From a virus, in IMG/VR virus record IMGVR_UViG_3300025652_000488, positions 1 to 25,455 of that record: DNA of 25,455 nt, one strand, 5' to 3'. A program made the position numbers and the translations under genes. The notes below the pieces were generated by a model that worked only from the letters and a program-made list of their open reading frames with translations, was not told where the DNA came from and ran no database searches. Every line of letters begins with the position of its first letter. The stretch's first letter is position 1. Below, piece after piece: positions 1,819-10,716 of this stretch.

Positions 1819-1979
1819 CGTACTCTCATTCCTTCTTTAAAGTTAACTCATGCCGAAGCCGTTCGTCTGGGGCTTGCGTCTGTGACTTTCGCTTCAGCGA
1901 AAAAGGCACTGACGCCTGCCCCGTGTCGGACAAAACAAGAGAGTGTACGCTTTTAGCGGACTCTGTTTAGACAGGGGTG

Positions 1980-2008
1980 TTGACAACTGCGTCGCTGGTG
2001 GTTAAAAT
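1980..2008 (+). promoter_or_regulatory. Near-consensus sigma-70 promoter, rightward
   Basis: TTGACA at 1980-1985 (perfect -35), a 17-base spacer, then TAAAAT at 2003-2008 (5 of 6 to the -10 consensus). The first motif copy (GCGTCGCTGG, 1989-1998) lies between the -35 and -10, and a reverse copy starts at about +16, so a protein bound there would block the promoter. It faces rightwards, against every gene between 1 and 7720. An inverted repeat AAATCTC-GTTA-GAGATTT (2005-2022) spans the expected start point near 2015. Confidence 0.6.
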
Positions 2009-2014
2009 CTCGTT

Positions 2015-2079
2015 AGAGATTTCAGGAAATCCAGTGACGCACTTTTATGATAACACCCCAGTTTGCGGGTGTTTTTTTA
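2015..2079 (+). ncRNA. Candidate small RNA between a promoter and a terminator
   Basis: A transcript from the promoter at 1980-2008 would start near 2015 and end at the terminator at 2052-2079, giving an RNA of about 65 bases. It contains one reverse copy of the array motif (2030-2041), which could pair with forward copies in other transcripts, including RNA of the opposite strand. There is no credible open reading frame in it. The start point is inferred from promoter spacing; no expression evidence is available. Confidence 0.4.
2052..2079 (+). terminator. Rho-independent terminator, rightward
   Basis: AACACCC (2052-2058) pairs with GGGTGTT (2068-2074 region) around a short loop and runs into an uninterrupted T tract (about 2072-2078). 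On the plus strand this is a classic intrinsic terminator. On the minus strand there is no T tract after the stem, so it should stop rightward but not leftward transcription. Confidence 0.7.
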
Positions 2080-2157
2080 TGCCTAATCTGCGTCACTGGA
2101 TTTTAGCTGTTTTCCCACTGACGCAAACACCCATCAAACCCCTTGTTTCATTGACGT

Positions 2158-2418
2158 TTATTCTGCGTCACTGGATTTGGCCTGTTTTTCCAGTGACGCA
2201 ACTTGCTTTTTGAAATCCTTCTCACCCAGTAACTCTATCGCCAGCCCCGTCATCATGAGCCTGACCGTGTACGCTGCGATTGGGTTGACTGGACACTGGC
2301 CACTTTCCCACCTGCGGATCGTGCGCCCGCCGTTGATGCCCATGTCAAACTCATCGGCAAGCGCCTGCTGCGTGTAGCCAAGCGCCATGCGCGCCTGCTT
2401 GAACTCTTGCGGTGTCAT
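2158..2418 (-). CDS. Xre-family helix-turn-helix regulator, 86 aa
   Basis: A cro/C1-type DNA-binding domain fills residues 1-62: MTPQEFKQARMALGYTQQAL, then ADEFDMG, GGRTIRRWESG and NPIAAYTVRL. The pattern 'R..LG.TQQ.LA..F.....TIRRWE.G..P' is characteristic of Xre-like regulators. The start at 2418 forms an ATGA junction with the upstream methyltransferase-like gene and has GGGGAG at good spacing; a start five codons earlier is possible. The last codons, from residue 73 (VASLEKQA..SSDAE), are written by a 12-base-arm palindrome of the neighbouring motif array, so the gene's 3' end is also a potential binding site. It may regulate that array or its own operon, but this is inference. Confidence 0.85.
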   Translation of the reverse strand: MTPQEFKQARMALGYTQQALADEFDMGINGGRTIRRWESGQCPVNPIAAYTVRLMMTGLAIELLGEKDFKKQVASLEKQAKSSDAE

Positions 2419-3014
2419 TGGTTGTCTCCCCATTGTGCGGCCATCGCGTCTGCAATGCCTTGGTATGTCGTGCTGCGTATTTTCCAGCGGTCCGGCGACG
2501 GCGGAAGGTAGTGCAGCCGCTCGCGGACGTTTTTAGGCAGCGTCATCATCTCGTCGTAGACGTCGTTGGTAGGTATCAGGTTTGGTAGGCCATGCAGAAA
2601 TAGCCCCGTCTTCTTCTGCTCCATATGGCCGAACTGATATGGCTGCACGAACTGCGGCGCGTGCATTTTGCCAAGCCTGCGCAAAACGCCGACAGGGTTT
2701 TCCATGCAGACGCGCGGCGACGCTAACTTCATTGCATCCCACAAGGCAACGGTCCAATCAACCGATGCAAGCCGCTCCGCATATTTTGGCTGCCCCTCGC
2801 CGTAGGTGCTATTGCCGGCGACGGTCAGAGCCGTGCAGGGCGGATGCGCAATAATTAAATCCCACTTCTGGCTCAGCATGTCATATACGTCGCCCTGATG
2901 ATGTGGGCCTTCTGCATCCGTTGGTAGCAGGTCGCACGACGTGGCGTCATGGCCGCGTGCGTTAAAAGCGTCACGCACTGTGCCGGAGTATTCGCAGGCT
3001 ACTAAAACTTTCAT
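2415..3014 (-). CDS. Cytosine-C5 DNA methyltransferase-like protein, 199 aa
   Basis: A compact single-domain protein of the Dcm-like fold common in phages. Visible motifs are a motif-I-like VLVACEYSGTVRDAF (residues 3-17), D28 in the second strand, the catalytic-type PPC at 58-60 in IIAHPPCTAL (motif IV) and MENP at 104-107 (motif VI). The C-terminal part ends LPPSPDRWKIRSTTYQGIAD, which recurs in this phage family. At 199 residues it is far shorter than a typical bacterial C5 methyltransferase and lacks a large target-recognition domain, so its target and even its activity are uncertain. ATG at 3014 with AGGAGG upstream is preferred over a TTG one codon earlier. No restriction partner is visible; possible roles are protection from host restriction or regulation. 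Confidence 0.7.
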   Translation of the reverse strand: MKVLVACEYSGTVRDAFNARGHDATSCDLLPTDAEGPHHQGDVYDMLSQKWDLIIAHPPCTALTVAGNSTYGEGQPKYAERLASVDWTVALWDAMKLASPRVCMENPVGVLRRLGKMHAPQFVQPYQFGHMEQKKTGLFLHGLPNLIPTNDVYDEMMTLPKNVRERLHYLPPSPDRWKIRSTTYQGIADAMAAQWGDNQ

Positions 3015-3354: not shown

Positions 3355-5673
3355 CTAGGTGTCTTGCTCTCCAACGCGGCCAGTCGCCTGCACACCCATG
3401 CGCTCCCTACGCTGGCTCTCTGACCGATACGCGACCTCCTCCAGCAAATCTTTCTCGAACCATTCTGCGATGATCAGCTTGGCCTGCCTCGCCGACTTCT
3501 TGTGGTCTGGGTTTGCAAATGTGTAGCCAGTGATGACTGATCCGACGTAGCGCGCCTTATCCTGCGGCCTGCTTGAGTATCTCTCGCCCTCGACGCCCTT
3601 GTCGATCTCAGTCAGCATCGCGTTGACCACGCGCGTCGTCATGCCGTCCCACAAGTCGGGCAGAGTATAGGCAACGCATACGCCGACGTATTCGCCGTTG
3701 TCCAGCTTGACCGACTTCATGCGGCGGTAGACTGCATGCTCCGCTGGCCGCGTGAGGTTGTTTTTTCCGTCGTCCACACGGAACAGGCCAATGGCGTCGC
3801 TCTCGCTGACGCCCAGCTCAATGGCGTCCTCACGGCTAACCTTGTTGATGACGCGTGCAGCTCTGGCCGCGCCGATCAGTGCGCCAGCCCCTCGGACGCT
3901 GTCGATGGTGGCATCCTCACCGCCGCCAGTCTTGCGAATGTGGTGGATCACGCCGTTGCCGCACGACGTCTCGCGAGAAATCTTGCGGATCATCGCGACC
4001 ACTGCTTGGATGCTTGGGTTTGAGTTTTCGTTGACTTGGTGCATCGACACAAACGGATCAGTGATCACCAGCCCGATGTTGTTCTCCCTGATCTTGTCGC
4101 GGATGGCGTTGGCCAGCGCAGTGTTCTCGATCAAGCCGTCGCGCGTCTCCATCGCCAGCGTGATGCTGATCGTGTCCTCGGCGTCGAGGAACAGCCGGCC
4201 CTTCAACTCTTCGTGTGTCACGTTGTATTCGCGCATGATGCCAGCAAGCCGCAGGTTGATCTCGTCCATGTCGTCTTCGAGGCACGCGAACCAGACTGGC
4301 ACGCTCTCGTGGACGACTTCACCCAGCAGCGGGCGCCCGGTGGCGATGGCTACTGCCTCAACCATTGTCAGCGACGTCTTGCCGATGCCGCCCGCGCTGG
4401 CCGTCACGCTGACAAAATTGCGGCAGTAGTGATTGCCGTAAATCCAGCGGCGTTTTGGCAGGTCGGCCTCGTTGAAATTTGCGACTGGCGTCGGCCACAT
4501 CTGCAACGTGTCGTCCACGTCCACTGTGGCAGGCTCTAGGCGCACTGGCATGTCATCCTCTGGCACGTAGTCAAAGTCGTCAAAGCCGTCGTCCTGTGTA
4601 ACCTCTGGCTGCGCGTGACGCACCTCCTCGAACGGGCTGGGCCGCAGCTCTTTGGCATACTCGCGCACGGCCGACTTCATGTCGCCGTTATGCTCAAAAT
4701 GGCAAAATAAGTCAAAGGCGTCGCCCCAGCAGTAATCGCCTTTCACCGCGCCGATGACTGCGCCGACATCTGAGCCAGATAGGCTGACCCAATACTCGCC
4801 AAAGTTCTTGGTCGCGAATGACCCTGACGACTGATAGCGGCTTGCATACGACTGCGAGTTGCCGTCGCGTGTGTAGCCACACCGCAGCAGCATATCTTCG
4901 ACTGTGTGGCGTGCGTTAAACTCCGCCACCGGGTCGAGATCGTCGCCCGACGCCTCCCGGCGCTTGATGCGCTCGGCCTGACGGACGGCACGCTCATGCT
5001 CTGCCTGCCGCTCGGCGATGGCCGCACGCTGACGGCGGAATTGCACCTCGCCCCAGATGCTGCTGTTCTTCACGTCAAGATAGCCCTCTCCGCGATGGCG
5101 ATCCTGATGGTAGAACAGCGGCTGCCCATGCGCATCGCGCTTTGCTGGCGGCACGTTCGGGAGGAAGATTGGCTGCCCAACCCGCGCGAGGGCCGCATCA
5201 CAGGTCACCCCTTGCTCACCCATCAGGCTGAACAGCGCCAACTGCGTGTCGCCATAGTCAGCGCCGCTGATCGGCTCAAGCAGTGGGATCAGCACTCGCC
5301 ACTTGCGGTTGTCTTCGCTGGCACCTGACGACGAATAGATCAACGCAGACGCATCGCCCGTTGCCCGTTTAACGGCATCCTTCAGATCGACCAGCGACGG
5401 CGAACCTTCGTCAACGTCAATCGCAAGGTAGTGAAATTCGCCACGCTCACGCTGCGATGCGTGCTTGCGGCCGTCGTGTTCGCGGTAAGTCGACGGAATG
5501 ATAAAGCTGGCGTCGGCCTTTTCCTTGGCCTGCGGCTCGGCAACCATTGCGGCGATGGCTGCGAGGCTGATGCTATCATATTGCCGATCTTCGTTGCCGA
5601 TCTTTGTGTCGTGTGCGCCGTGTGCTAAAAGCACGTCAGACTTGCCCACGGCTGAAATTTTAGTTACACTCAT
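3355..5673 (-). CDS. PrimPol-helicase (AEP-like primase fused to RecA/AAA_25-type ATPase), 772 aa
   Basis: Probable replication primase-helicase. The N-terminal domain (about 60-190) contains YLAIDVDEG (D86 and D88, the metal-binding DxD type of archaeo-eukaryotic primases) and RKWRVLIPLLEP. A linker domain (about 250-345) carries HTVEDMLLRCGYTRDG and GDAFDLFCHFEHNGD, seen in other phage PrimPol-helicases. The C-terminal RecA-like ATPase has Walker A ASAGGIGKTS (425-434), ACLEDD (463-468), Walker B LVITDP (535-540) and HHIRK (577-581), followed by the RGAGALIGAARAARV motif typical of RepA-like hexameric helicases. The start MSVTK at 5673 has GGAGA upstream; a 53-residue extension reads through a hairpin and is rejected. 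It would unwind the fork and synthesise primers. No polymerase gene lies nearby. Confidence 0.85.
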   Translation of the reverse strand: MSVTKISAVGKSDVLLAHGAHDTKIGNEDRQYDSISLAAIAAMVAEPQAKEKADASFIIPSTYREHDGRKHASQRERGEFHYLAIDVDEGSPSLVDLKDAVKRATGDASALIYSSSGASEDNRKWRVLIPLLEPISGADYGDTQLALFSLMGEQGVTCDAALARVGQPIFLPNVPPAKRDAHGQPLFYHQDRHRGEGYLDVKNSSIWGEVQFRRQRAAIAERQAEHERAVRQAERIKRREASGDDLDPVAEFNARHTVEDMLLRCGYTRDGNSQSYASRYQSSGSFATKNFGEYWVSLSGSDVGAVIGAVKGDYCWGDAFDLFCHFEHNGDMKSAVREYAKELRPSPFEEVRHAQPEVTQDDGFDDFDYVPEDDMPVRLEPATVDVDDTLQMWPTPVANFNEADLPKRRWIYGNHYCRNFVSVTASAGGIGKTSLTMVEAVAIATGRPLLGEVVHESVPVWFACLEDDMDEINLRLAGIMREYNVTHEELKGRLFLDAEDTISITLAMETRDGLIENTALANAIRDKIRENNIGLVITDPFVSMHQVNENSNPSIQAVVAMIRKISRETSCGNGVIHHIRKTGGGEDATIDSVRGAGALIGAARAARVINKVSREDAIELGVSESDAIGLFRVDDGKNNLTRPAEHAVYRRMKSVKLDNGEYVGVCVAYTLPDLWDGMTTRVVNAMLTEIDKGVEGERYSSRPQDKARYVGSVITGYTFANPDHKKSARQAKLIIAEWFEKDLLEEVAYRSESQRRERMGVQATGRVGEQDT

Positions 5674-5707
5674 AGTACGTTCTCCATTTAGCGTGTTGAC
5701 GTCCTTT

Positions 5708-10422: not shown

Positions 10423-10716
10423 ATGGACAATGAATTGCACAGCGAACATAGGAACGCCCGCAGCGGTGTGCTGGCGGAGGCCGATACGCTCATCAACGGC
10501 GATCGCCAAAAGCACTACGGCACGCCGCAGGAGAACTTCGCGGCCATCGCGCAAATGTGGTCGGCATATCTCGGCATCAGTGTATCACCCGCAGACGTTT
10601 GCAACTTGATGGCGTGCCTCAAGATTGCCCGCCTGCGCAATGGCGCTCACAGGGACTCATCGGTTGACGGATGCGGCTATCTTGCGCTGGGCTATGAACT
10701 AGACACCAACGGCTAA
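10423..10716 (+). CDS. DUF6378-like protein, 97 aa
   Basis: Matches my recollection of a widespread phage family with the pattern 'A..LINGDRQ..YGTP.ENF..IA..W...LG..V.P..V...M..LKIARL......DS.VD..GY.ALG.E'. Here it reads ADTLINGDRQKHYGTPQENF, then AQMWSAYLGISVSPADV and CLKIARLRNG, with DSSVDGCGYLALGYEL at the end. The family has no proven activity; it is sometimes compared with MazG-like nucleotide pyrophosphohydrolases. AGGAGA precedes the ATG. It is the last gene of the rightward operon and its 3' end overlaps that of the opposite-strand gene by 18 bases. Confidence 0.65.
   Translation: MDNELHSEHRNARSGVLAEADTLINGDRQKHYGTPQENFAAIAQMWSAYLGISVSPADVCNLMACLKIARLRNGAHRDSSVDGCGYLALGYELDTNG

Follow-up and report, generated by a model that had tools for sequence, protein, structure and literature searches.

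An array of eight iterons in a virus record of 25,455 bases, the whole of which is the window analyzed here, is very probably a replication origin, with iterons that serve as binding sites for the RepA-type helicase-primase encoded by the phage itself. The array exists, its position is conserved among related phages, its sites change in concert, and their motif co-varies one to one with a residue in the wing of the C-terminal domain of the primase-helicase. From these observations, we infer that the protein physically binds the array, that the helicase is loaded there, and that replication starts there. In the proposed mechanism, the C-terminal winged helix of the primase-helicase would dock on the eight iterons, on which several copies of the protein may assemble; the RepA-like helicase ring would then be loaded, opening the DNA, and the N-terminal part of the protein would subsequently prime. 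Among the three readings offered in the original prediction, a replication origin with initiator sites is the supported one, with the primase-helicase as the proposed initiator and a putative origin activity of the array.

The array and its place in related phages

The predicted eight 12-base sites of the TGCGTCACTGGA type between 1875 and 2200 were confirmed (Table 1); they alternate strictly in direction, four being exact, two carrying two mismatches and two carrying four, and their four consecutive pairs are inverted repeats with hairpin-forming potential. The clustering is local as claimed: at up to two mismatches, six sites fall within 1870-2205 versus two in the other 25 kb, and a one-mismatch search of the full record gave zero sites with 0-1 mismatch beyond the array. 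The GC skew across the window showed no clear switch at the array. Judged from the sequences of relatives, the inverted layout with its hairpins is a trait of the window lineage and is not generally required, because class III arrays consist mostly of direct, same-direction repeats.

Table 1. Features of the window and motif forms of the arrays
Feature	Position	Strand	Remarks
Iteron S1	1875-1886	+	diverged, TGCGTCTGTGAC, 4 mismatches to TGCGTCACTGGA
Iteron S2	1905-1916	-	diverged, GGCGTCAGTGCC, 4 mismatches to TGCGTCACTGGA
Promoter-like TTGACA-17-TAAAAT	1980-2008	+	sigma70-type; S3 inside the 17-bp spacer
Iteron S3	1988-1999	+	TGCGTCGCTGGT, 2 mismatches to TGCGTCACTGGA; within + strand promoter spacer
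Iteron S4	2030-2041	-	exact TGCGTCACTGGA, 0 mismatches
Terminator-like hairpin plus T run	2052-2080	+	hairpin 2052-2073; would close an RNA of ~65 nt
Iteron S5	2089-2100	+	exact TGCGTCACTGGA, 0 mismatches
Iteron S6	2114-2125	-	TGCGTCAGTGGG, 2 mismatches to TGCGTCACTGGA
xre-like gene	2158-2433	-	neighbor, outside the system
Iteron S7	2164-2175	+	exact TGCGTCACTGGA; overlaps xre 3' end
Iteron S8	2189-2200	-	exact TGCGTCACTGGA; overlaps xre 3' end
Primase-helicase	3355-5676	-	773 aa; proposed initiator; PHROG matches, RSF1010 RepA-like core, winged helix
C-terminal winged-helix domain	3358-3639	-	~residues 680-773; proposed origin-binding; AlphaFold, fold matches
Codon of wing residue R757	3406-3408	-	R/K identity tracks motif fifth base T/C
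12-bp site forms			window-type TGCGTCACTGGA; L051-type TGCGCCACTGG; class III AGGTGAGGA/AGGTGGGGAA
Motifs, class I C-terminus arrays			TGCGTCAC, TGCGCCAC, TGCGCCGC, TCCGCCAG, CGCGCCAG
Motifs, class III C-terminus arrays			AGGTGAGG, AGGTGGGG, AGGTGTGG, AGGTGTGC
Motifs, Roseobacter phage arrays			TTGTATAAA (CRP-821, CRP-831); ACTACAAA (CRP-811, CRP-823)

The array is present in a near-identical contig (L005/L016) and in a single relative, which bears the three labels L006, L042, and L051. A relaxed motif search returned 31 viral stretches, most of which encode the primase-helicase of the window and carry the array near the 3' end of its gene. Alignment searches with the primase-helicase gave about 140 loci. 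Of the 102 that were long enough to be scored, 90 have an array of repeated sites in the 1.5 kb following the primase-helicase stop codon, and the other 12 showed no clear array; among 249 control pieces taken from these loci, the count was 13. In whole-record scans, the motif was nearly confined to the array place after the primase-helicase gene. The isolated Roseobacter phages CRP-811, CRP-821, CRP-823, and CRP-831 have an array at the same place with wholly different motifs. In the window, three genes spanning about 1.2 kb separate the primase-helicase gene from the array, and in most relatives the two adjoin directly. The conservation test set by the original prediction, namely whether the motif is kept in relatives together with the flanking genes, favors the array; the kept neighbor is the primase-helicase gene and not xre.

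This distribution bears on the suggestion that the array is a multi-site operator of the adjacent Xre-like protein, a reading that the adjacency of xre, which ends within the array, would suit and that we nevertheless consider highly improbable and reject. The relaxed motif scan found an xre match in only three contigs apart from the near-identical one, and most array-bearing relatives lack the gene; around its helix-turn-helix, the Xre protein hardly differs between the window and L006, yet every site has changed; and L006 has extra coding DNA separating xre from the array.

The primase-helicase and its co-variation with the motif

The helicase core matches AAA_25 (E 8e-33), and its closest solved structure is RSF1010 RepA, both in sequence (E 1.6e-9) and in fold (Z 20, rmsd 2.3 over 203 residues). 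The core has a RecA fold of the RepA/DnaB-like type (SF4) and is not an SF3/D5-type AAA+ helicase; sequence and fold agree with a RepA-type hexameric helicase, of which the hexamer is predicted. The PHROG primase/helicase families align mainly to this helicase part. By eye, the N-terminal part resembles an archaeo-eukaryotic primase (AEP) with DxD and following motifs, a reading that no library confirmed, Pfam giving zero primase matches for this part. In the AlphaFold2 model, the C-terminus forms three helices and a beta-hairpin wing (core pLDDT ~80-90) with residue 757 at the wing, and a C-terminal winged helix is therefore present in the predicted structure. A fold search with the isolated domain returned generic winged helices only, with a best Z of 6.0 and a modest Z of 5.8 for the SAMD1 winged helix-DNA complex; the absence of P4 alpha from these matches is uninformative either way. 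No RepC match was obtained among the proteins scanned.

The motif varies among phages and is common to all sites of one array. The array of the closest relative (L006/L051) is about 92% identical to that of the window, and motif position 5 differs at all eight sites, seven of the eight differences being T to C (A to G on the other strand). Window and L051 differ at 28 of 324 columns, of which 20 lie outside the eight position-5 bases; given 28/324, the probability that all eight designated bases would differ by chance is about 1e-9.

Among class I representatives (8 with an A-motif and 25 with a G-motif), a single one of 785 protein columns, residue 757, separates the motifs, with R in 8/8 A-motif and K in 25/25 G-motif proteins; its context is QRR(757)ER in the window versus QRK. 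In class III, exactly one column, also in the wing, fully predicts the base (Q with A, 14/14; K with G, 14/14; R or T with T, 3/3). The class I and class III domains are homologous (hhalign probability 98.9, E 2e-17, over an aligned stretch that is partly linker before the domain), and in each class the predictive residue is a wing residue that precedes a conserved arginine by two positions. Over the two domain classes, the residue-base code reads K-G, R or Q-A, and R or T-T.

On a maximum-likelihood tree of 48 representatives, built from the protein minus its last 160 residues, 13 motif-base changes and 13 wing-residue changes were counted, and all 13 were joint; fourteen loci with no clear array or motif call are omitted from this count, and two loci (L169 and L194) were labeled by the de novo motif AGGTGTGCA, since the generic pattern washed both out. 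Agreement was complete among the ten independent pairs located on well-supported branches (10/10, p=0.002). The tree also implies no fewer than 11 switches of C-terminal class together with motif type. Some motif changes, for example TGCGCCGC, occurred with no matching wing change. In L102 and L123, which represent one event, the motif TCCGCCAG pairs with QYK replacing QRK in the wing, and this pairing is possibly a second residue-base contact.

CRP-821 and CRP-823 have a host strain in common. Their identity amounts to 90-97% in the single-strand-binding protein and the helicase core, falls to 64-77% in the helicase C-terminus plus the array, and is again 87-95% in the next gene; this drop indicates that the C-terminus plus the array is transferred among phages as an apparent cassette. 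Cassette swaps alone are no proof of binding, because recombination nearby could move the domain along with the array, and where the array adjoins the C-terminal codons, co-inheritance contributes to the co-variation. The single-residue/single-base match appears hard to attribute to such hitch-hiking, because it recurs in two classes and because, in the pair formed by the window and L051, it spans about 1.2 kb occupied by other genes. Position and co-variation thus point to repeated sites beside the gene that are probably specific to its own protein.

Clustered inverted repeats can also serve in partition, packaging, or recombination. Such a role, which includes the partition-like site considered in the original prediction, is extremely improbable here: none of the genes seen in the vicinity is a partition gene, the array remains associated with replication genes and not with packaging genes, and the motif co-varies with a replication protein.

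Promoter, terminator, and hairpins

The strong promoter noticed earlier beside the array is real and forms part of the array itself, S3 lying in its spacer. Of 76 class I loci, 43 have a promoter with an iteron in the spacer, and the register never varies; the conserved promoter suggests that transcription may be coupled to origin occupancy. It could instead be argued that the winged helix of the primase-helicase only represses transcription at an operator array, as autoregulation, and that the array is not an origin. The shared register of the spacer site and the site pairs flanking the promoter start region would suit this reading; however, the promoter is missing from many class I arrays (the L104 type and others) and is oriented against the primase-helicase operon, and at least eight repeats beside a helicase gene constitute an iteron-like anatomy, so that repression alone is unlikely. 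Operator and origin roles can coexist, and the iteron in the promoter spacer suggests that origin RNA synthesis or autoregulation may also be built into the proposed origin.

The promoter and the terminator-like hairpin together (1980-2080, + strand) could yield an RNA of about 65 nt antisense to the primase operon. The terminator-like hairpin is conserved in L051 and is present only in some lineages. This promoter-terminator pair and the paired motifs raised the candidate of a structured or antisense immunity RNA of the P4/P1 type, which was rejected as unneeded because mostly same-direction arrays and the wing co-variation were found.

More generally, the hairpins might work in the transcript of either strand, as a structured non-coding RNA or as terminators in series. 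The predicted folding of both array strands is far stronger than that of shuffles (z -8.6 and -7.2), the array includes the terminator-like hairpin, and the inner stem of the third hairpin (pair 3, 2009-2026) is still palindromic in L006 with a different sequence (AAATCTC/GAGATTT in the window versus AATTTCT/AGAAATT). Nonetheless, this explanation is very unlikely: the mostly same-direction repeats of relatives form no such hairpins, the identical base change occurs in all sites and not just within each hairpin, the base is foretold by a residue in a predicted DNA-binding wing, and the array gave zero family matches in Rfam at gathering thresholds. A replication origin read by the primase-helicase is the preferred reading.

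Comparison with known replicons and neighboring genes

The helicase of P4 alpha is of the SF3 type. In P4 alpha, one protein combines primase, helicase, and a winged helix that binds origin repeats, followed by unwinding and priming, and the primase part belongs to the Toprim type of bacteria (PMC4234260, citing Ziegelin & Lanka 1995 and Yeo et al. 2002 for the account of P4 alpha). The same three functions, including a repeat-binding winged helix, are proposed in one protein here; in contrast, the phage protein has an RSF1010 RepA-like (SF4) core, and its array is just downstream of the gene. For SaPI Rep and SCCmec Cch2, the iterons immediately follow the helicase gene and are bound by the C-terminal domain of its product (PMC7581432), which resembles the present arrangement of a helicase C-terminal domain and iterons downstream of its own gene, where binding would be analogous; those helicases are of the D5/SaPI Rep type and act in other hosts, whereas here specificity cassettes are swapped among phages. 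The primase-helicase ORF904 of pRN1 has a C-terminal winged helix and an essential origin element just 3' of its gene, and its authors proposed the same arrangement for some phages (PMC4234260). That element is one large stem-loop with no iterons and is paired with an SF3 helicase, in contrast to the iterons and SF4 helicase of the phage. The phage protein is not placed in the group of P4 alpha, SaPI Rep, and pRN1, because an SF3/D5-type helicase was tested for and was not found.

In the RepA-RepB'-RepC replicon of RSF1010, a separate protein, RepC, recognizes the iterons (PMC4234260), whereas the proposed iteron reader here is part of the helicase protein, as a fused winged helix. In the RepA_N/ori modules of PLE, the Vibrio satellites, the initiator DNA-binding domain and the iterons co-vary and are swapped as a module, and PLE replication required cognate initiator-origin pairs (PMC8263062). 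The initiator differs from the present one, for which the co-variation is narrowed to one wing residue and one base through 13 changes.

We propose, tentatively, that an SF4 (RepA/DnaB-like) helicase-primase may act as its own origin recognizer, with one base of the origin code specified by essentially a single wing residue. If so, an SF4-type helicase with a fused origin-binding domain would be an unusual route to ring loading without a separate initiator; the residue-base code and the swappable domain-array cassette would make phage replicons mutually exclusive, and both may be evolving in response to parasites or competitors that target the origin. A likely origin and initiator can be named for a marine phage group that is widespread worldwide and includes the isolated CRP roseophages, for which the paper describing these phages reports no origin (PMC12629253). 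The origin sequence and the initiator residue have changed in step no fewer than 13 times in this group, making it a natural data set on which initiator-origin recognition, replicon incompatibility, and specificity switching can be tested directly. When bacterial genomes were scanned for the primase, a single match, a MAG contig, was obtained, which fits lytic phages.

Several observations concern the neighboring genes. The last codons and stop of xre (2158-2200) fall in the S7-S8 palindrome, so that the putative origin sequence writes the end of the Xre protein. In L006 (6200-6870), xre ends differently, and the coding region between it and the array is nuclease-like by eye. A protein of about 195 aa (993-1580, - strand) with no assigned function, which gave zero family matches in family scans, follows the array in the window and in many relatives. 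A gene-neighbor search with an 81-aa protein found the near-identical contig only. The small protein at 10423-10716 (+ strand) carries the PHROG label phosphofructokinase; similarly placed CRP genes are labeled either phosphofructokinase or dATP/dGTP diphosphohydrolase, and one of the two labels is therefore probably wrong.
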